From contig NC_014221.1 of NCBI RefSeq assembly GCF_000092425.1, forward strand, positions 935,001-999,000: a stretch of DNA of 64,000 nucleotides, read 5' to 3'. This document shows, piece by piece, positions 3,266-11,020 of the stretch (the stretch's first letter is position 1; every line of letters starts with the position of its first letter). Position numbers and translations under genes: made by a program. The DNA is from Truepera radiovictrix DSM 17093 (GTDB taxonomy: Bacteria > Deinococcota > Deinococci > Deinococcales > Trueperaceae). The notes under the pieces were generated by a model, which was given only the letters and a program-made list of their open reading frames with translations, made no database searches and was not told where the DNA came from.

Positions 3266-3790
3266 CTACTCGCTCCCTTCGGGGTCGTAGGTGAAGGTAA
3301 AAAAGTCTTGGATCAGACGCCCGTCTTCGGCGAGCGCGCGCCACATCACCACGTACGCCCCCGCTGGTAGCGCCTCCTGGAGGCTGAGCGTGACCGTGGG
3401 GCCGTCGGCTTGCACCCCCGTATCGACGCGCGCGTCCTCGTCGTCTTGGAGTGGGAGCACCTGGGCGGCGAGGGTGGTGGCAGCCTCATCGAGGGTGTCG
3501 GGGTCGTCTGGGTCTGGGGTGGGTGCCGGGGGGAGCGCCCCGCCCGTCTCGGTAGCGCCCGCATGCGCCGCACCCACCTCGAGCGACGCCTGCGCCGCCT
3601 CGACGGGGAGCGGGTAGACTTTGAAGAGGCTGAAGTCGAGCGTGACGCTCTCGCTAAACGTCAGCACCACCTCGGCGGGGGGCTCGGTGAGGGTGGCGCC
3701 GGCCGCGGGGCTCGAGGAGATGAGTTCGGCGTGCGCGTGTGCGGCGCCAAGAGCGCTACAGGTCAAGAGAGCAAGGGCGCGTACGATCAT
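3266..3790 (-). CDS. CopC-domain copper protein (copy 1)
   Basis: The 174-residue protein has a signal peptide ending in AAHAHAEL, so a His sits at or near the mature N-terminus, as in CopC copper sites. The CopC fold follows ([22 protein letters not shown], then [14 protein letters not shown]). The middle (about residues 75-130) is an Ala/Pro/Asp-rich insert containing [12 protein letters not shown], a block shared with the second CopC at 6971. The C-terminal stretch reads [10 protein letters not shown]: CopC proteins usually have a copper-binding His here (DGH), and it is replaced by Arg. Its ATG overlaps the TGA of the diheme gene (ATGA), so the two are translationally linked. Periplasmic copper binding is likely but may be altered. 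Confidence 0.85.
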
Positions 3791-5100
3791 CTCGTTAGCT
3801 TAACGCGCCGCGCTCGCTGCGGCTCGGTCCAGGGGTTGCTGAAACGGGGGTCGGTGAGGAAGGTTTCGTCGGTTAGGCTCTCTAAAAAGGCGATGAGGTC
3901 GGCGCGCTCGTCGTCGGTCAGGGAAAACCCCATGACGAAGCCGCTCTTGAAGGGGTTCGTCCGCCCGTCGCCCGCATTGGGTCCCGAGGCGATCACCCGC
4001 CCGCCGGCTTCATAAAAGCGCACGACCTCCTCGAGGGTCTGGGCGCTGCCGTCGTGAAAGTAGGGTGCGGTGACGGCGACGTTGCGGAGGCTCGGCGCGC
4101 GAAACCGGCCCATGTCGGCGGGGTCACCGGTGATCTCGTAGAGGCCGGTGTTGGGGTGCGGGTAGCGGCCCTTGCCGCCGAGGTTGTAGAGCCCGGTGTT
4201 GTGAAAGGCGCTCTCTCTAAAGGTCGTGTTCTCGTGGACCGTAGGGCCGGCGAAGTTGAACCCGCCGTGGCAGTGGTGGCACTCGAGGCGTTCGGACAAA
4301 AAGAGTTCGAGCCCGCGCTGCGCCGAGTCGGAGAGCGCGTCCCAGGCGCCGCCGTAGACGAAGCGGTCGTAGGGCGAATCGCCCGAAAGAAGCGTGCGCA
4401 CAAAGGCTGCGAGCGCCTGCACGGTGGTGCGCACCGAGAAGGGGTCGTCGAGCTCGGGGTAGGCGGCGTGAAAGAGCTCTTGGTAGCGCCTGTCGGCGCG
4501 CAGCCGTGCTAGCAGCTCGTCTTCGCGCCCCGCGAGGCCGAGCTCGACGGGGTTTTCGCCGAACATGGGGACGAGGATGTGCCGCTCGAGCTCGGTGAGC
4601 GTCGGGTTGGCCCAGTTGAGCGTCGGCATGTAGACGACGTTGGCGAGCGAGGGGGCGTTGCGCGGCCCCCGCTCGCCGGTCGAACCGACGCTGCGCTCCC
4701 GCCCGTCCGTAAAGGCGCGCGCTTGGACGTGGCACGAGGCGCACGCCTGCGTCTGGTTGCCGGAGAGCCGCACGTCGTAAAAGAGGTGCCGCCCGAGCGC
4801 CACCTTGGCGTGCGACATGGGGTTGTCGTCGGGGACGAGGGGTTGCGGGAAGCCCGGGGGAAGCTCCCAGGTAAAGGGCGCGGCGGGGGCGGGCGCCGAG
4901 ACGCTGCTGGCCGAGGTGCTGCTGCGGCCCGCGTGGGTCGTCTGCACGAGGGTGTGACCGAAAACGACCGCAACGGGAAGAAAGAGCGCGCTGAGCACCC
5001 CTCCCAGAAGCCAGAGGTCCAGACGGCGACCGGTGACGCCCTTGGCGCCGCGCCGGTCTGCCCGCGCGTACCGTGGCGTTAGCTGCGTGTGTCTACGCAT
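3787..5100 (-). CDS. mbnH: MbnH-like diheme cytochrome c peroxidase family protein
   Basis: The 437-residue protein has one N-terminal membrane segment (about residues 29-49), a Ser/Ala/Pro linker, and two c-type haem sites: CASCH at 120-124 and CHHCH at 274-278. This is the CcpA/MauG superfamily. The neighbour upstream encodes an MbnP-type four-Cys protein, so this is best read as MbnH of the MbnP/MbnH (metallo-mystery) pair. In characterised pairs MbnH is a MauG-like enzyme that oxidises a Trp of MbnP to kynurenine, completing a copper site. ATG 5100 is preceded by AAGGAGG. Its membrane anchor and its position between CopC and MbnP fit a periplasmic role in copper handling. A plain cytochrome c peroxidase is the alternative. 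Confidence 0.87.
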
Positions 5101-5113
5101 CCTTGCCTCCTTG

Positions 5114-5143
5114 AAGCTGGAGGCGGGTGTCCGCCTCCAGCTT
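5114..5143 (-). other. Intercistronic hairpin between mbnP and mbnH
   Basis: A 13-bp perfect inverted repeat (AAGCTGGAGGCGG / CCGCCTCCAGCTT) with a 4-nt loop lies between the mbnP stop and the mbnH Shine-Dalgarno, with no T tract after it on either strand. It looks like an RNA stem that protects or sets the ratio of the upstream message rather than a terminator. Confidence 0.7.
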
Positions 5144-5154
5144 GTGCCAAAGCG

Positions 5155-6081
5155 CTACTGCGCGCGCGCTACGCGGAAAAAGCTCGCTCCCGGCTCGCTG
5201 CTGCCACTCTGGAGGTCGAGTCCGAGGTTGGTGAACACGACCTCGCAGTCGGGGTCGTCGTGGCCCGACATGCACCCCGGAGGGGCGAGCTCGAGCGACT
5301 GGCTGAGGTCGACGCCCTCATAAAGCCGTGCGAGGTCGGCGACGATGGTGTCGCGCATGGGGTCGAGCTCGAGCCGCACCTCGACGCGGTTGGGGCGCTC
5401 ACACTCGGCGTTGGGGGGGACGACGCTCGAGGGCGAAGCGCAGCCGGTGCTGCCCAGGTGAAGGGGCCAGAACCCCTCGCGCGGCGCGGCATGCCCCTCG
5501 GTGTCCTCGGGGTCGCTCTCCGGCGTCGCAGCGTGCTCGCCCCCGCCGGTCGCTTCGGGGCTGCTAGCGGTCTGCAGGTCGATGCGGGCGAACTTGTACC
5601 CCGCCTGCCAGTTCCACCAGAGGGCGCTCAGGTTGAGCGGGCTAGGGGCGGTGGTGACGTCGAGGTGATTGAGCGTAAAGGGCACCCCGAGGGTAAAGGC
5701 GACGCCGATGTAGTCGCCCGCCGGGGCGCGCCCCATCACCTGGGTGTTGGTCTCCGCCGTTCCCCCCTCGCAGCTGCCGCTGCCGTCCTCAAAGTCGAGG
5801 AGCGCGACGGGCCCGTGCTGCCAAGCGTTCTGCTCGAGCTCGAGGGGTACCTCATCGCCGGTGGCGCTCAGCAAGCGGACGTTAGAGACGTAAAAGCGCA
5901 GGTCGAGAAGTTCGGTTTCAGTCGCCTCGCTGCCCAGGGGTGGCAGCGGCGCGCCGCACGAGACGCGCTCGTCACCAGCGCGAACATCGAAGGTGAGGGT
6001 CACGGGGGAAACGTCATCCTGCGCGCTCGCGAGCGGCAGGGCGAAAGCAGCGAGCGCGGCGAGGACGGCGGTCGTTTTCAT
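5155..6081 (-). CDS. mbnP: MbnP family copper-binding protein (four-Cys motif)
   Basis: The 308-residue protein has a signal peptide (MKTTAVLAALAAFALPLASA). It shows the MbnP family landmarks: LDLRFYVSNVRLL, LGVPFTLNHLD, SALWWNWQAGYKFARIDL, HLGSTGC, and a C-terminal PPGCMSGHDDPDC with paired Cys. In studied MbnP proteins a Trp converted to kynurenine contributes to copper binding; Trp residues in the WWNWQAGYKF block are candidates for comparison. A Glu/Pro/Asp/His-rich insert lies at about residues 170-195. ATG 6081 was chosen over an in-frame ATG at 6117 because AAGGAGG precedes it directly and the signal peptide begins there. mbnH follows after a 54-nt gap holding a hairpin. Exported copper chaperone or store is the likely role. 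Confidence 0.9.
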   Translation of the reverse strand: MKTTAVLAALAAFALPLASAQDDVSPVTLTFDVRAGDERVSCGAPLPPLGSEATETELLDLRFYVSNVRLLSATGDEVPLELEQNAWQHGPVALLDFEDGSGSCEGGTAETNTQVMGRAPAGDYIGVAFTLGVPFTLNHLDVTTAPSPLNLSALWWNWQAGYKFARIDLQTASSPEATGGGEHAATPESDPEDTEGHAAPREGFWPLHLGSTGCASPSSVVPPNAECERPNRVEVRLELDPMRDTIVADLARLYEGVDLSQSLELAPPGCMSGHDDPDCEVVFTNLGLDLQSGSSEPGASFFRVARAQ

Positions 6082-6120
6082 ACGGCCTCCTTGGCGTTGG
6101 GTGTTCGTGGTGTTCACGGT

Positions 6121-6150
6121 GCGTCCCTAAGCGTCCTTAATCGCTAATCG
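6121..6150. repeat. Short direct repeats before mbnP
   Basis: Two 10-bp units (GCGTCCCTAA, GCGTCCTTAA) run head to tail at 6121-6140, followed by TCGCTAATCG. On the minus strand this reads as CGATTAG-CGATTAA then GGACGCTTAGGGACGC. The block straddles the copD stop and lies 40-70 nt upstream of the mbnP start, where an operator or promoter would be expected. Confidence 0.4.
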
Positions 6151-6965
6151 TGAGGTAAAGGGCTCGTGGTGAGCACGCCGGTCACGGCGAAGATCGCCAG
6201 CAACAGCCCCGCTTCGGCGAGCAAAACGGCGCCGAAACGGTGGGTAAGCGTGGCCGAGTTCCCCCGACGCAGCCGCGGCAGAAAGTGCCAGCGGTTAAGC
6301 GCTGCGAGCGCGAGGGTAAGGCCGACGAGGGCGACCTTACCGAGGAGCGACCAGCCGTAGCGGGTAGTGACGAGGACCTCGGGGCGCTCGATGTGGAGCG
6401 CGCTGGCGTAGACGCCGGTGGCGACGAGCAAGAGCACGCTCCACAAGCCGATGCGGGAGACGCGTCCGAGCACCCCTAGGCGCGCCTCCCCGAGGCCGCG
6501 CCAGCCAAGGGCGGCAAAGAGCACCGCGCCGCCCCAGAGCATCGCGGCAGCGAGGTGCCCCAGGTCGGCGACCAGCGCGGGGGGGCCGTGCATCACGGCG
6601 CCGTGGCTAAGGGCGCTAAACGAGAGGAGCACCCCGGCGCCCGCTAGCCCAAAGGGCCACGGGCGCGAAACGCGCAAAAGCCCGACGAGCGCGCCGGCGA
6701 GCGCGACGCGCGCGAGCACCCAGCGCCCGTGACGGGTCGTGGCGGCGTACTCGAGCGTGAGCCCCGCGTCGAAGCGGCCGGTGAGCCGAACGAGCGTCCA
6801 GACGAGGTCGCCCAAGCTGCCGAGGACGAGCAGTGCGGCCCCGAGGAGGGCGAGCGCGCGCAGGGAGCGCTCCGGCGCGCCGGGGCGGAGCGCGAAGCGG
6901 TAGAGCCCGGCGCCCAGGAGCAGCAGCGCGCCGAGGTACGCCGAGGCCTTTAGAAGGGCGTCCAC
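6144..6965 (-). CDS. copD: CopD family copper resistance membrane protein
   Basis: This 273-residue protein consists mostly of membrane segments (about eight). It has the CopD features RHGRWVLARVAL, FSALSHGA, DLGHLAAAMLWGGAVLFA and YGWSLLGKVALVG, with His residues placed near membrane boundaries. CopD proteins are thought to move copper across the inner membrane together with periplasmic CopC. It starts with GTG at 6965, 5 nt after the stop of the second copC gene, in one operon with copC and mbnP. Direction of transport cannot be told from sequence. Confidence 0.87.
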   Translation of the reverse strand: MDALLKASAYLGALLLLGAGLYRFALRPGAPERSLRALALLGAALLVLGSLGDLVWTLVRLTGRFDAGLTLEYAATTRHGRWVLARVALAGALVGLLRVSRPWPFGLAGAGVLLSFSALSHGAVMHGPPALVADLGHLAAAMLWGGAVLFAALGWRGLGEARLGVLGRVSRIGLWSVLLLVATGVYASALHIERPEVLVTTRYGWSLLGKVALVGLTLALAALNRWHFLPRLRRGNSATLTHRFGAVLLAEAGLLLAIFAVTGVLTTSPLPHD

Positions 6966-6970
6966 GGGCC

Positions 6971-7441
6971 CTAGGGAAGCACGCTAAAGGTAAAAAACCC
7001 CTGCGTGGTGTGGGTGTCTATCGACAGCACGCGCCACATCACGACGTAGTGCGGCGCCTGCAAGCCCTCCTTGAGCGGCAGCGTGACCTCGGCGCTGACG
7101 CGTCCGTCGGCTTGCACGCCGGTGTCGGCGCGCGCCTCGTCGTCGTCCCTGGCCTCTAAGACCTCCGAGACGAGCTGCCCGGCGAGGGCACTCAGCCGCT
7201 GCTGCGCGTTCTCGGCCGACAGGTCGATCTCCGCCTCGAGGGGGTAGACCTTGTAGAGGCTGAAATTGACCTCGGTCGGCTCGGTAAAGCGCAGCGTCAC
7301 CGCCTCGGGGAGTTCGCTCAAGACCTCCCCTTCGGCCGGCGTCGACGCCTCGAGGTAGGCGTGGGCGTGCGCCGCCCCCCCCAAGAGGGCGGCGCACGCC
7401 AGGAGCACGCGGAACAAGGTGGTAGCGGTGAGCGGCGTCAT
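6971..7441 (-). CDS. copC: CopC-domain copper protein (copy 2)
   Basis: The 156-residue exported protein has a signal peptide ending in GGAAHAHAYLEA, leaving His near the mature N-terminus. The CopC fold is present: STPAEGEVLSELPEAVTLRF, NFSLYKVYPLEAE, YVVMWRVLSIDTH. Unlike copy 1 it keeps a His near the C-terminus (IDTHTTQGFFTF), where the family has a copper ligand. It shares with copy 1 the insert [11 protein letters not shown], so the two arose from one ancestor. It lies 5 nt before copD, the usual CopC-CopD partnership. Copper(II) binding and delivery to CopD is the likely role. Confidence 0.88.
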   Translation of the reverse strand: MTPLTATTLFRVLLACAALLGGAAHAHAYLEASTPAEGEVLSELPEAVTLRFTEPTEVNFSLYKVYPLEAEIDLSAENAQQRLSALAGQLVSEVLEARDDDEARADTGVQADGRVSAEVTLPLKEGLQAPHYVVMWRVLSIDTHTTQGFFTFSVLP

Positions 7442-7442
7442 C

Positions 7443-8078
7443 TCAGGGGATGCTGATCGCCTCGAGCGGCAGCACGCCCGGTTCGCTGTGGGTGTACGCC
7501 TCGAAGGTCTCGTCGACCTCGAGCTCGCCGATAAAGCCGAAGATGCGGATCGGGTAGTCGCCGCTCTCGGTCGGGACGAAGGCGGCGGTGTAACGCCCCC
7601 CGCCGAGGTCGATGAGTTCGAGTTCGAGGGTGCTCTGGCCGTCCGGGCTGATGATCTGCGCGCTCAGCCCGGGTGCGAGGTTTTCAACCCCGGCGCCGCC
7701 GTGGCTGTGGCCGTGCTCGTCGGCGTGATCGTGCGCGTCGGCGTGCTCGTGCCCGTGGTCGTGGCCGTGGTCGTGCTCATGGTCGTGGGTGTGCTCATGA
7801 TCGTGGCCGTGCTCACCCTCGTGCGCTGCGGCGGCGTGGTCGTGAGCGTGACCGTCCCCGTGGCCGTGTTCACCGGCGGCCTCGAGGTCTTCGGGGCGCG
7901 CTTCGGTGATGATGAGGTCGAGGCCGTTGAGGATGCCCGCATAGGCGGGGTTGACGGTGAACCCGACGGTGATCATGTAGGGGGTACCCGCGCTCTCACC
8001 GACGATGCGCGACTCGTGGGCGAAGGCGGCACTGAGCAGGGCGAGGGCGCACGCGGCGCCGAAAAGGCGTTGCAGCAT
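7443..8078 (-). CDS. Exported histidine-rich protein, putative metal binder
   Basis: This 211-residue protein has a signal peptide ending AAFAHES, followed by a beta-rich domain (PYMITVGFTVNPAYAGILNG) and a low-complexity segment at residues 71-126 with 23 His, mostly in HxH or HD repeats. A second beta domain (TLELELIDLGGGRYTAAFVP) closes the protein. I do not recognise a named family. The position one base before copC and the His tract point to binding of copper, zinc or nickel in the periplasm. The ATG at 8078 is preceded by AAAGGAAAG. The nucleotide repeat encoding the His tract could vary in length. Confidence 0.8.
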   Translation of the reverse strand: MLQRLFGAACALALLSAAFAHESRIVGESAGTPYMITVGFTVNPAYAGILNGLDLIITEARPEDLEAAGEHGHGDGHAHDHAAAAHEGEHGHDHEHTHDHEHDHGHDHGHEHADAHDHADEHGHSHGGAGVENLAPGLSAQIISPDGQSTLELELIDLGGGRYTAAFVPTESGDYPIRIFGFIGELEVDETFEAYTHSEPGVLPLEAISIP

Positions 8079-8110
8079 AGCTTTCCTTTCATAAACGTGT
8101 CGGTCAACGA

Positions 8111-8131
8111 CGGCCCAAGCTGTCTGGGCCG
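8111..8131. other. Inverted repeat before the His-rich gene
   Basis: CGGCCCA (8111-8117) and TGGGCCG (8125-8131) form a 7-bp stem with a 7-nt loop, 33-53 nt upstream of the start at 8078. It could be an operator or a weak terminator of the upstream gene; there is no T tract. Confidence 0.4.
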
Positions 8132-8198
8132 CCCTTGGTAGGGGGGAGGGTGTAGATGATGTCAGCAGGGGTGCGGCGAGGCGCGTGCCCAGATGCCG

Positions 8199-8585
8199 CT
8201 ACGCTGCGCGGGGTGGCGCGCGGCTCCGGTAGTGCGCGACGGTGCGGTGAGAGGGCGCTCGGGTCGCGGCGCGAGCGGTTCTAAAGCGGCGCAGCGAGGC
8301 GACGGTCGGGTTGACTTCGGGGGCGAGGAGCCCCGCGCCGACGACGCAGAGCGCGCAGTGCGGCTCGCCGCGGTCGTGATGGCTTTTGTGCTCGCCGTGT
8401 GAGCGCTCCGGGGTGGGGTGATGGGGGTGCGCGGCGCATGTCGCTCCGTGGCCGAGCTGACCGAACGCGGCCACCTTGTGCGGTGCGTAGGGGGCCAGAG
8501 AGACCCCGAGCCCCACGGCCAGGGCCAGAGCGGCCCGCGCTACCCAGCGGAGCGCGTTATGGTTGCAGACGCGCCGGTGCCTCAT
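8199..8585 (-). CDS. DUF2946-like small exported protein
   Basis: The 128-residue protein has an N-terminal hydrophobic segment (VARAALALAVGLGVSLAP), then a His-rich stretch (AAHPHHPTPERSHGEHKSHHD) and EPHCALCVVGAGLL. The HCxxC arrangement after a His-rich linker resembles DUF2946, a family often found in copper gene clusters. The second half is basic and low in sequence signal. An upstream in-frame GTG (8597) is an alternative start. Metal binding is inferred from the Cys/His content and context only. Confidence 0.6.
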   Translation of the reverse strand: MRHRRVCNHNALRWVARAALALAVGLGVSLAPYAPHKVAAFGQLGHGATCAAHPHHPTPERSHGEHKSHHDRGEPHCALCVVGAGLLAPEVNPTVASLRRFRTARAATRAPSHRTVAHYRSRAPPRAA

Positions 8586-8633
8586 GGCTCGCACCACTCA
8601 CCAGCCTCATACCCCAGGGCCACGCCAAAGGCC

Positions 8634-10190
8634 CTAAAAGGTCGGACCAAACACGGTGCCGCGCATCTCCATGGGCTGGGCGAGCACCCACACGGAAAAC
8701 GCGGCGAACACGAGGATGAAGATGAGGGGTGGCCAGAGCGCCAGGGCGCCGCGCCGTCCAAAGTCGCGCAGGGCGATCCTAAAGGCAACCCAGAGGGCGA
8801 GGAGCGAGTAGAAGCTCACCAGGGTCGCGCCGATGGGGAAAAGCCAGCGCGTCGGGATCAGCCGGGAGAGCCGCCAGTTGGGATCTACGGGCAGCCCGCG
8901 GAGGGCGAAAAAGTGCTCGAACACGGGGACGATGCTGAGCGCGCCGGTTAAAAAGTGAAAGAGGTAGTGCGCCGCCCAGAAGCCGAACGCCAGCGGCAGG
9001 AGCACGTAGCCCCAACGTAAGAGCGCTGCCTGGAGCCCCTGCCGGACCCCGCCCAAACGGTCGGCGTAGAGCGCCATCGCGGCGGTGATGCCGAAGCCAA
9101 AGGCGCTCACGAGCCCGAAGATGAAAGCGAGCAAGAGCGGTTCGTTGCGCGTCCCCAAGGTGTCGGACAACCACTGCGCAAAGCTGAAGTAGGGCCCGAT
9201 CATGGCAACAGCGTTGAGCAGTCCCCAGAAGGCGAGAAAAACCCCGAGCAGCACCACGCTCAGCTTGCCGCGGCGCGCCCACACCTCGCGGGTCCACTCC
9301 CACCCCGGAGCGCGCGTGACGAGCGCGACGTTGTCGTAGGGGCAGGCGCGCACGCAGTTAAAGCAGTTCGTGCAGTCCATGTTCGACTGGATGGTGGGAA
9401 CGAAGAGGTCCGTTTCGCACCCCGGGAAGAAGCCCTCGCCGTTGGGGCGCGTAATCTCGCTCAAGGGGATAAAGGCGGCTTCGCCCTTCGCGTCGGCGCG
9501 GTCGGCGTAGCTCTCGCGGCCGTGCAAGCACGGTTTATGCTCGCACCGGCGGCAGATGTCGGCGTCTTTGGCGGCGATCTGCGTCGGCGAGGCGGTCGCG
9601 AGGGCGAAGTTGAAGTTGCCCAGCGGGCACACGTAGCGGCAGAAGGTGCCCGCCGGAAAGAGGGTGTCGATAATGAGCGCGCCCGCGAAGTAGGCGAGCA
9701 CCAGCCACGCGGTCAGCCAGGGGCTCGCCCAGAGGTTGAACGCTTCGTACGAAAAGAAAAAGAGCAGCAGCAACAGGAGGACGACAACCTTGTTTTTGAG
9801 CACGCCGGGCCAGCGGAGTTTGCCCGGCAGCAGGCGCTCGAGGCGCCGGGTCGCGCCGCGCGTCAGCATGAGCGGGCACGCGGCGCAAAAGGCGTTGCCC
9901 AACAGGGCGAGCGCGACCACCACGAGCCCGCGGTAGTGGAGCCAGACGCTGGTGGTGGCGACGTTGCGCGGGGCGAGCTGCCGACCGGTAAAACCGTCAA
10001 CGAGGACGAAGAGGGCGAGCACCAAAAGTGGCAGCTGAAGGGCCAAGCGGGCGTAGCGCCAGCGCACGAACGCGCGCAGGCCCGGCAGAGCGAAGAGGTC
10101 GAAGCCTCGAGGTTGCGCGACGAGGGGCCCCGAACGCGGGGTGTGGGCGGGGGTCGCGCGCTCGGTAGGGTACATCGGCAGCTCGGTCAT
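8634..10190 (-). CDS. Membrane polyferredoxin (NapH/CcoG-like 4Fe-4S protein)
   Basis: The 518-residue protein has about eight membrane segments and several cysteine clusters: C102/C105, FCRYVCPLG (C184, C188), CRRCEHKPC (C213, C216, C221) and CTNCFNCVRACP (C273, C276, C279, C283). The last two fit 4Fe-4S clusters on the cytoplasmic side. The architecture is that of NapH, NosR C-terminus and CcoG-type electron carriers. CcoG reduces copper(II) for cytochrome oxidase assembly; with a FixH/YtkA-like gene two genes upstream in this copper block, a copper-reductase role is a reasonable inference. It is preceded by a 12-codon ORF whose stop overlaps its start (ATGA). Quinol oxidation in another pathway is possible. 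Confidence 0.8.
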   Translation of the reverse strand: MTELPMYPTERATPAHTPRSGPLVAQPRGFDLFALPGLRAFVRWRYARLALQLPLLVLALFVLVDGFTGRQLAPRNVATTSVWLHYRGLVVVALALLGNAFCAACPLMLTRGATRRLERLLPGKLRWPGVLKNKVVVLLLLLLFFFSYEAFNLWASPWLTAWLVLAYFAGALIIDTLFPAGTFCRYVCPLGNFNFALATASPTQIAAKDADICRRCEHKPCLHGRESYADRADAKGEAAFIPLSEITRPNGEGFFPGCETDLFVPTIQSNMDCTNCFNCVRACPYDNVALVTRAPGWEWTREVWARRGKLSVVLLGVFLAFWGLLNAVAMIGPYFSFAQWLSDTLGTRNEPLLLAFIFGLVSAFGFGITAAMALYADRLGGVRQGLQAALLRWGYVLLPLAFGFWAAHYLFHFLTGALSIVPVFEHFFALRGLPVDPNWRLSRLIPTRWLFPIGATLVSFYSLLALWVAFRIALRDFGRRGALALWPPLIFILVFAAFSVWVLAQPMEMRGTVFGPTF

Positions 10191-10225
10191 CTGGTGAGCT
10201 GCTCCGGCGAGAGGTGAACGGTCAT
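10187..10225 (-). CDS. 12-codon leader ORF coupled to the polyferredoxin gene
   Basis: ATG at 10225 follows a strong AGGAGGGG and encodes MTVHLSPEQLTR, ending at TGA 10189-10187, which overlaps the ATG at 10190. The downstream gene has a poorer site of its own, so ribosomes may reach it by reinitiation. The peptide itself need not have a function. Confidence 0.55.
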   Translation of the reverse strand: MTVHLSPEQLTR

Positions 10226-10305
10226 CGGTCCCCTCCTAGGGTGTGATGGGTGGGCGCCGAGGGGGACGCCTCGGCGCGCGGCTTCGGTAACGGCGCGTGC
10301 TTAGG

Positions 10306-10620
10306 TTACGGAAGCTGCCCGGGAGGGGCGCGGCTACAGGAGCGGAGGCGCAGCGGCGCCGCGGCGCGCGGTGTGAGGTGCGTAGGGGGCGCGTCGCTTT
10401 GGTAGAGCACGAAGGGCACCACCGCGGGTGCGCAGAGGGTGGCGACGCCCAGAACCGCGTCGACCGTATGCACGTGCGGCGGGGTCCCCTCGGGGTGGGT
10501 GTGGCCGAAGTCGTGTTCAGCGGCGAGGACGGGAGTGGCAAAAAGCGCCGAGGTCAGCAGAAACGCGAGCAGGGCCCTGAGCCCCGCCGAGAGGGCGCGC
10601 TGAAGCCGCGGCGCGTGCAC
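10306..10620 (-). CDS. Small exported protein of unknown function
   Basis: The 104-residue product has a signal peptide (LLAFLLTSALFATPVLA) followed by EHDFGHTHPEGTPPHVHTVD, a short His-rich segment, then a second hydrophobic stretch (VLGVATLCAPAVVPFVLY). The C-terminal 35 residues are basic and may be poorly conserved. GTG at 10620 has GGAGG at good spacing, and the gene starts one base after the stop of the FixH-like gene. The His pattern and context suggest a metal-associated envelope protein; I do not recognise the family. Confidence 0.6.
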   Translation of the reverse strand: MHAPRLQRALSAGLRALLAFLLTSALFATPVLAAEHDFGHTHPEGTPPHVHTVDAVLGVATLCAPAVVPFVLYQSDAPPTHLTPRAAAPLRLRSCSRAPPGQLP

Positions 10621-10621
10621 C

Positions 10622-11020
10622 TTAGCCTCCGGGAACGGAGATCGGCCGGTCGGCGCTCGCGCGGGCGCCGTCGGGCAGGGTCACCTCGGCGGTGAGCAGC
10701 CAGTCGCCCGCCATGTTGAGGTCGAAGTCGGGGACGCTGTAGAGGCCGGGCTCGAGCTCCTGCGCCTCGGCGATGACCGGCTCCATGCCGGCGTGCGTCA
10801 TGTTGCCCGTCACCGTGACCTGCGCCTCGGAGACGCCCTCGCTACCGTCGAGGACGTAGACGAGCACCTCGGCGGGGCCGACGGCGGGGGGGTTGGGCAG
10901 CTCGAGGCTCACGCGCACCCCCGGCGGGTTCTGCACGCTCCCCGCACCGCTGGCCGCTTCGGGCGGCCGGCAGGCGCTAAGGGGCGCGCACAAAAGGAGC
11001 ATCAGGACAAGTCGCTTCAC
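10622..11020 (-). CDS. FixH/YtkA-like lipoprotein
   Basis: The 132-residue protein has a lipoprotein signal (MKRLVLMLLLCAPLSAC, lipobox LSAC). The mature part is an Ig-like beta domain: VSLELPNPPAVGPAEVLVYV, GNMTHAGMEPVIAEAQELEPG, LYSVPDFDLNMAGDW, which follows the YtkA/FixH pattern. Such domains accompany copper or cytochrome oxidase assembly genes. It starts with GTG 11020, 7 nt after TACACT (11033-11028 on the minus strand), so this is probably the first gene of the transcript reaching into the copper block, with a leaderless start. Confidence 0.75.
   Translation of the reverse strand: MKRLVLMLLLCAPLSACRPPEAASGAGSVQNPPGVRVSLELPNPPAVGPAEVLVYVLDGSEGVSEAQVTVTGNMTHAGMEPVIAEAQELEPGLYSVPDFDLNMAGDWLLTAEVTLPDGARASADRPISVPGG

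Follow-up and report, generated by a model that had tools for sequence, protein, structure and literature searches.

A copper-gene block of Truepera radiovictrix with two candidate metal-sensing leader ORFs

The block and its genes

The DNA considered here is a 64,000-nucleotide (nt) window of the genome of Truepera radiovictrix DSM 17093 (positions 935,001 to 999,000 of NC_014221.1), a single contig of 3,260,398 bases. Between window positions 3266 and 11020 lie ten open reading frames (ORFs), all of them intact, with a single stop and on the minus strand, as in the single-strand block described in an initial annotation of this sequence. Read from 11020 to 3266, the order is YtkA, HisSm, the polyferredoxin PFd, DUF2946, HisRich, CopC1, CopD, MbnP, MbnH and CopC2 (Table 1), with a VanY-like gene, named by eye, next after CopC2. 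The gene list of the initial annotation is sound: YtkA, DUF2946, both CopC copies, CopD and MbnP exceed their Pfam cut-offs, and MbnP and MbnH exceed those of NCBIfam. Judging from sequence evidence, we think with moderate confidence that the block is a cassette for periplasmic copper trafficking, probably for copper acquisition, and that two leader ORFs, HisSm and DUF2946, would set its expression as metal-sensing ribosome-arrest peptides.

Table 1. Features of the block, from position 11020 down to 3266 of the window (aa, amino acids; rut, Rho utilization)
Feature	Position	Strand	Basis or remark
YtkA/FixH-like lipoprotein, 132 aa	10622..11020	-	PF13115, 40.9 bits (cut-off 25.9)
HisSm, 104 aa: HTHPEGTPPHVH, then 45 aa, RAPP, 4 residues; candidate His-type metal-sensing arrest leader	10306..10620	-	Not listed in the initial annotation
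115-nt gap, HisSm stop to PFd start; candidate regulatory RNA	10191..10305	-	
PFd, membrane polyferredoxin, 518 aa, NapH/MauN-like, not CcoG	8634..10190	-	
DUF2946/CruR-type leader ORF, 132 aa: CALC, 41 aa, RAPP, 3 residues	8199..8597	-	PF11162
120-nt gap, C-rich/G-poor 45-nt tract (rut-like) and hairpin	8079..8198	-	
HisRich, 211-aa secreted protein, inserted His-rich stretch, possibly YtkA-like	7443..8078	-	
CopC1, D-x-H kept	6971..7441	-	PF04234, 63.7 bits; alignment
CopD membrane protein	6144..6965	-	PF05425, 67.3 bits (cut-off 32.1)
MbnP copper-binding protein, WxW at residues 168-170	5155..6117	-	TIGR04052
MbnH di-haem enzyme	3787..5100	-	TIGR04039
CopC2, DGR instead of D-x-H, long internal insertion	3266..3790	-	PF04234, 66.4 bits

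Two small ORFs with metal motifs and a terminal RAPP

Work on copper-linked leaders of this kind has so far concerned a few Proteobacteria, whose examples, CruR and CutF, have Cys sites. The DUF2946 ORF matches PF11162 at 29.4 bits (cut-off 23.7), in keeping with its first naming as DUF2946-like. According to PMC9426467, this family includes CruR, a copper-responsive upstream ORF of Bordetella pertussis in which copper control involves both the CxxC and a C-terminal RAPP, and in which copper switches the operon off with Rho; DUF2946 also leads operons with CopC, PCuAC and genes like MbnP and MbnH (together MbnPH), and has been described in Deinococcus. CruR is reported to stall in vitro (PMC12992588). 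The window ORF shares with CruR the CxxC, a RAPP three residues from the C-terminus, a hydrophobic N-terminus, a long gap downstream and a copper operon. The genes downstream differ, being a TonB-dependent transporter and a PepSY_TM protein for CruR and HisRich, CopC, CopD and MbnPH here. If the window ORF acts like CruR, its nascent CxxC would bind copper just outside the ribosome and decide RAPP stalling, and the stall would switch the downstream HisRich-CopC-CopD-MbnP-MbnH-CopC2 genes.

HisSm begins 1 nt downstream of YtkA and therefore would be an internal leader. It carries an HxH-6-HxH motif, and its last His stands at the same distance from RAPP, 45 residues, as the last Cys of CruR. 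It has no CxxC, no Pfam match (E≤0.1 for the window copy, E≤0.01 for three others) and no NCBIfam match over cut-off; because it matched nothing in these collections, its His motif may represent a new way of metal sensing. A comparison in hhalign with DUF2946, a candidate homologue, gives 88%, over the N-terminal half only. In an alignment of six HisSm rows (29-41% identity to the window row) 11 columns are invariant, eight of which are H40, H42, H49, H51, R97, A98, P99 and P100.

A profile search of 111 Deinococcota genomes returned HisSm matches in 23 at E≤0.1, of which we judged 20 credible, all in one family, the Trueperaceae. Those dropped were G001, G045 and G054 (weak, E 0.004-0.09), together with a second match in G094; within the 20, the His motif is incomplete in G101 and the G089 copy is cut by a contig end. 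With a profile of the N-terminal part alone, 13 of 14 non-seed members bearing HxH-6-HxH have R[AGD]PP 45-47 residues on, and the 14th ends at a contig end; L208, L211, L213 and L214 (His motif incomplete) and L209 and L210 (no N-terminal match) fall outside these 14. This count is not fully independent, since the six seeds were chosen for RAPP and the model used for the phylum search includes the RAPP columns. In L198, L200, L204 and L205 the matched part stops short of these columns, and each of the four carries RDPP at 47. Seven of the 13 have RAPP or RGPP and six RDPP, a partly arrest-permissive variant (PMC12992588). The motif lies ≤21 residues from the C-terminus in 10 of the 13, the sequence between it and the His motif is not conserved while the distance is fixed, and the RAPP codons vary synonymously between members. 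The layout of a RAPP-type arrest peptide (a small ORF with a C-terminal RAPP-like motif upstream of a functionally linked gene) appears, from sequence, in the window and in most members.

The genes that follow HisSm are PFd in G000 and G109, a His-rich or HisRich-family protein with CopC or PFd in G097, G098, G110, G092, G094 and G095 (partly by eye), CopD in G083 (and G091 by eye), and NosL by Pfam in G087 (two) and G086 (one tested). Among 275 ORFs of 60-230 aa in the window, two have CxxC or HxH-HxH followed at the set spacing by a C-terminal R[AGD]PP, both of them in the block, and residue shuffles lead one to expect 0.0075 per window of the Cys type and gave none of the His type in 400 rounds. 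Outside the phylum, partial HisSm matches occur in 2 of 400 Chloroflexota genomes (≤12 candidates scored per genome); neither locus holds an ORF with a paired HxH motif, and the presence of HisSm in Chloroflexota was rejected on this ground.

The two longest gaps of the block, 115 and 120 nt, directly follow HisSm and DUF2946. The stretch 10172-10332, after HisSm, folds at a z-score of -2.48, with 1 of 200 shuffles as good. After DUF2946, a 45-nt tract has a C minus G value of 0.489 (0.45 or more in 0.23% of background stretches) and a hairpin is present, with a z-score for the whole stretch of only -0.61. By analogy with CruR, this C-rich tract fits expression under copper shortage. Two candidate elements were rejected: a conserved rut site, since the tract is strong only after the window DUF2946, and an RNA switch after HisSm, in which the RAPP codons would sequester the ribosome-binding site and at which minimum-free-energy folding had hinted, since on masking these codons the pair probabilities barely shift (0.21 to 0.26).

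Several observations weigh against a pair of copper-sensing leaders. The DUF2946 ORF is not the first gene but lies inside the block, 36 nt after PFd on the same strand, where an internal promoter before it is an alternative; its CxxC-RAPP spacing of 41 falls short of the 45 residues, within 1-2, reported for the family and found between the last Cys and RAPP of CruR (PMC9426467). Conservation of the rut-like tract does not extend to the other genomes tested, and the gap after DUF2946 is just 22 nt in G109. By base-pair probabilities, masking the RAPP codons gives no clear release of the ribosome-binding site, the values after DUF2946 going from 0.42 to 0.38-0.66 by extent masked. In G092, G094 and G095 the HisSm-like ORF extends 45-52 residues past R[AG]PP, overlapping the gene that follows, so that the motif is not C-terminal. 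Two further points concern the metal. A published His-only group of CutF-like proteins, clusters 14 and 17 of a sequence similarity network (SSN), adjoins HupE/UreJ and stands beside nickel/cobalt genes (PMC9973294). In the window genome itself, a second HisSm-like ORF with a degenerate His motif and the ending SRAPPVA (L245:3720-4067, plus strand; genome 127720-128067) precedes genes for two Peripla_BP_2 proteins, a FecCD permease, an ABC ATPase and an ABM protein rather than copper genes; it may serve as a leader for the uptake of iron, haem or cobalamin.

Some of these points would suit an alternative in which both ORFs encode ordinary secreted metal-binding chaperones or buffers of the same pathway and RAPP is incidental: the three ORFs with a motif 45-52 residues from the end agree with it, as do the hydrophobic N-terminal segments, the His and Cys motifs and the position among genes for secreted copper proteins. 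RAPP and RGPP, however, are among the most avoided tetrapeptides of bacterial proteomes (PMC12992588), and the fixed distance across unconserved sequence and the near-terminal position in most members also speak against this alternative; moreover, the DUF2946 family includes a tested regulator in Bordetella (PMC9426467). We regard the chaperone alternative as unlikely, and consider the two ORFs most likely to be regulators, not copper carriers. It could also be that HisSm senses another metal (nickel, cobalt, zinc) or haem iron, its place among copper genes reflecting cross-regulation. The HupE/UreJ clusters and the degenerate copy favour this, but where the next genes could be read they belong to the PFd cassette or encode NosL or His-rich proteins accompanied by CopC/CopD, several of them named by eye only, and sensing of another metal seems rather improbable.

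Regulation by both ORFs remains our preferred reading, in which HisSm would do for PFd, through its four-His site, what DUF2946 would do for the genes further down; the metal that it reads may be Cu(II) or another one with a preference for His. As described in PMC9973294, CutF-like proteins resemble HisSm in being small secreted leaders that precede metal genes and carry a metal motif and a Pro-rich C-terminal stalling-like motif, and for CutF copper switches the target on. Their His-only clusters adjoin HupE/UreJ, whereas HisSm adjoins copper genes and was found in one Deinococcota family, a difference drawn from description only. The literature as consulted contains no HxH-RAPP family beside Deinococcota copper genes; supplementary files lay outside that search, and the family may be catalogued there. 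We suggest, tentatively and somewhat short of even confidence, that HisSm is an unrecognised His-type class of metal-sensing arrest peptide in the Trueperaceae which, paired with a CruR-type Cys leader, gives separate readings of two copper states or of two metals and adjusts in succession the redox protein and the copper-carrier/MbnPH genes. If this is true, a His-type family with fixed RAPP geometry would suggest that the same ribosome device can take different metal sites, and would offer a clean testable system. The HisSm/DUF2946 pair is of more interest than the pathway itself.

The leader layout was sought among 2,528 short ORFs from 36 sequences, in one scan and in a second, stricter one. 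CruR-type ORFs occur in six of eight Deinococcota loci with a divergent MbnP (L056, L057, L060, L061, L063 and L070, not L058 or L059), and the layout is also found before MbnP in Ideonella and before the methanobactin precursor in Methylocystis; a Methylocystis ORF before MbnP has a spacing of 51, and a Paracoccus ORF lacks CxxC. The link between leaders and MbnPH is partial, because only 4 of 80 MbnP loci from named genomes carry a Cys- or His-type leader ORF in the 6 kb before MbnP (L103, which is G097, L144, L177 and L182); L116 and L144 carry leader-type ORFs elsewhere in the locus. In Methylocystis iwaonis (L067:5424-5831 and 8322-8687) an RGPP ORF with a spacing of 51 precedes MbnP and a RAPP ORF with a spacing of 43 precedes a methanobactin precursor/sigma-factor gene, a sequence arrangement that suggests arrest-peptide control of methanobactin genes. 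In Deinococcus radiodurans, L070:7439-11460 lines up a CruR-type ORF and a divergent MbnP, followed by a MauG-like peroxidase that stays below the TIGR04039 cut-off at 263.5 bits, and then a hypothetical gene, CopC and CopD; it would be a convenient laboratory model.

MbnP, MbnH and the other copper proteins

The MbnP and MbnH assignments pass the hidden Markov model check that the initial annotation had proposed. MbnP scores 274.2 bits with TIGR04052 (cut-off 140), and is also over the cut-off of Pfam MbnP, while MbnH scores 517.3 bits with TIGR04039 (cut-off 362.85). MbnH starts 54 nt after MbnP and has one CxxCH haem motif at residue 120 and another at 274; MbnP has W168-N-W170 and six Cys, with both Trp invariant in 8 aligned rows, and a later Met may be its true start. 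By sequence, the solved structures closest to MbnP and MbnH are 7l6g (E 2.4e-45) and 6e1c (E 1.1e-131), respectively. In passing these cut-offs, and in adjacency, WxW and the two CxxCH, the pair is like known ones; unlike them it stands inside a CopC/CopD/polyferredoxin cassette in a genome without MbnB. For M. trichosporium it is established that MbnH oxidises the first Trp of the MbnP WxW to kynurenine, which yields a Cu(I) site, and the window pair would do the same.

The absence of methanobactin genes, claimed at first, holds for mbnB, for which TIGR04159 has no match in the one genome searched; the other mbn genes were not searched for. A single-sequence MbnP search of the collection genome_contigs gave no match. 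Pairs of MbnP and MbnH beyond methanobactin producers have been described before, in a 2013 paper that left the role of the pair open (PMC3621798).

Both CopC copies and CopD bear out their first naming by passing Pfam cut-offs (23.3 for PF04234), and fall short of the NCBIfam equivalog cut-offs (NF033814, NF033808), with 65.6 and 61.7 against 95 for CopC and 74.6 against 195 for CopD. In CopC2 the His of D-x-H, which we take to be a Cu(II) ligand, is replaced by Arg, the sole such row among 14 aligned; CopC2 may lack the usual Cu(II) binding. One of two CopC copies in L059, outside that alignment, likewise lacks this His (DGD). HisRich contains 25 His on recounting, not 23 as first given. Its Pfam matches, to Zip and Filamin, are below cut-off, its relative in G109 matches YtkA at 21.0 against 25.9, and its His-rich stretch is an insertion, missing from four aligned relatives (L083, L060, L061, which is partial, and L112).

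PFd passes no family cut-off, its best match being NapH/MauN TIGR02163 at 41.1 bits against 213.05. As a membrane polyferredoxin it has two Cys pairs at the N-terminus plus ferredoxin motifs, a layout presumably common to NapH/MauN and CcoG; all 12 aligned rows keep 12 Cys, together with H408 and H412 of the C-terminal membrane part. The CcoG model TIGR02745 has no match in the genome at E≤0.001 (it matches 6 of 14 controls, over cut-off in 1), and since it is silent, identity of PFd with CcoG is rejected. Of the label CcoG/NapH-like, then, the NapH-like part stands, below cut-off, and the CcoG part does not, which leaves CcoG-type copper(II) reduction unsupported; that PFd might act as a copper(II) reductase would be by analogy only. 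An AlphaFold model of PFd (mean predicted local distance difference test score, pLDDT, of 61) is too weak for a fold search.

Within the cassette, CopC, HisRich and YtkA would hand copper on and CopD would move it across the membrane. The most likely destination would be the three haem-copper oxidases of the window genome, which encodes three COX1 proteins and in which they are a plausible copper sink.

Composite history and linkage of the block

In the set of 111 genomes, MbnP and MbnH exceed their model cut-offs in the same two, G000 and G097, with weaker MbnP matches in 21 more. PFd occurs in 52, six of which also have an MbnP match of any strength. Under strict clustering of 22 loci (20 PFd loci, G097 and the window), YtkA is present in 17, CopD in 6 and CopC in 5. 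The gene-order comparison put forward in the initial annotation gave a divided result. The cassette recurs in G097, as YtkA-HisSm-HisRich-CopC-CopD-MbnP-MbnH-PFd, but the locus of G109, of the same genus as the window, reads YtkA-HisSm-PFd-DUF2946-HisRich-CopC-CopD-VanY, which is the window order minus MbnP, MbnH and CopC2. Because these three are absent from the G109 locus, we split the block in two; on this comparison it is composite, a YtkA/polyferredoxin/CopC/CopD cassette plus MbnP-MbnH-CopC2.

In a tree of 97 MbnH rows, the window and G097 fall in a 13-row set with 10 Chloroflexota (support 99/93), which is unresolved inside. Twenty other Deinococcota rows lie far from this set, a placement for which the program warns of a long-branch join. 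Gain of the MbnP/MbnH pair by lateral transfer would be the simplest reading, with loss in G109 as an alternative.

The 80 MbnP loci were searched with local profiles, some resting on one or two sequences, and the counts are lower bounds, several loci being cut by contig ends. They include at least 76 with MbnH, 10 with PCuAC, 7 with CopC and the same 7 with CopD, 5 with SCO, and 1 with PFd and YtkA (G097). The full set is thus rare, with PFd in 1 of 80 and CopC plus CopD in 7 of 80, which weighs against the reading preferred here. Fused proteins join parts of the set. CopC and MbnP form single proteins in two Chloroflexota loci (L123:9566-10819 and L130:9590-10831), PCuAC is fused to a di-haem MbnH-type protein in two, and one carries a CopC-CopD-YtkA-PCuAC fusion; each of these domains is over its Pfam cut-off. 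Among 400 genomes sampled from the L123 phylum, 3 have the full CopC-MbnP protein (the query's own included), and so does G112. The fusion probably represents one event, because the other copies are 85-89% identical. N-terminal extensions of MbnH (L105, L106, L118, L138) and of MbnP (L110, L116, L117) contain no further Pfam domain except those of haem proteins.

These fusions would be gene evidence that the kynurenine-copper protein MbnP acts in a CopC/CopD/PCuAC route. The notion of one periplasmic pathway is consistent with gene linkage, given the recurrence in G097, and the fusions support joining MbnP/MbnH with CopC/CopD. The fuller form first proposed, a single import pathway with CcoG-type copper reduction, import by CopD and no special regulation, has MbnP, MbnH, CopC and CopD confirmed and joined by fusions, but the genome has no CcoG match, the G109 block lacks MbnPH and the leader signatures are left unexplained, and we consider it quite unlikely.

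A point of annotation also emerged. In the PLSDB gene table, the gene after MbnP is called 'methanobactin export MATE transporter MbnM' in L065:10874-12025, L066:8780-9949 and L068:6882-8042. These genes match MbnH (TIGR04039, 441-559 bits) and not MbnM, and on these matches the label is an annotation error. The same label also appears on L067 and L069.

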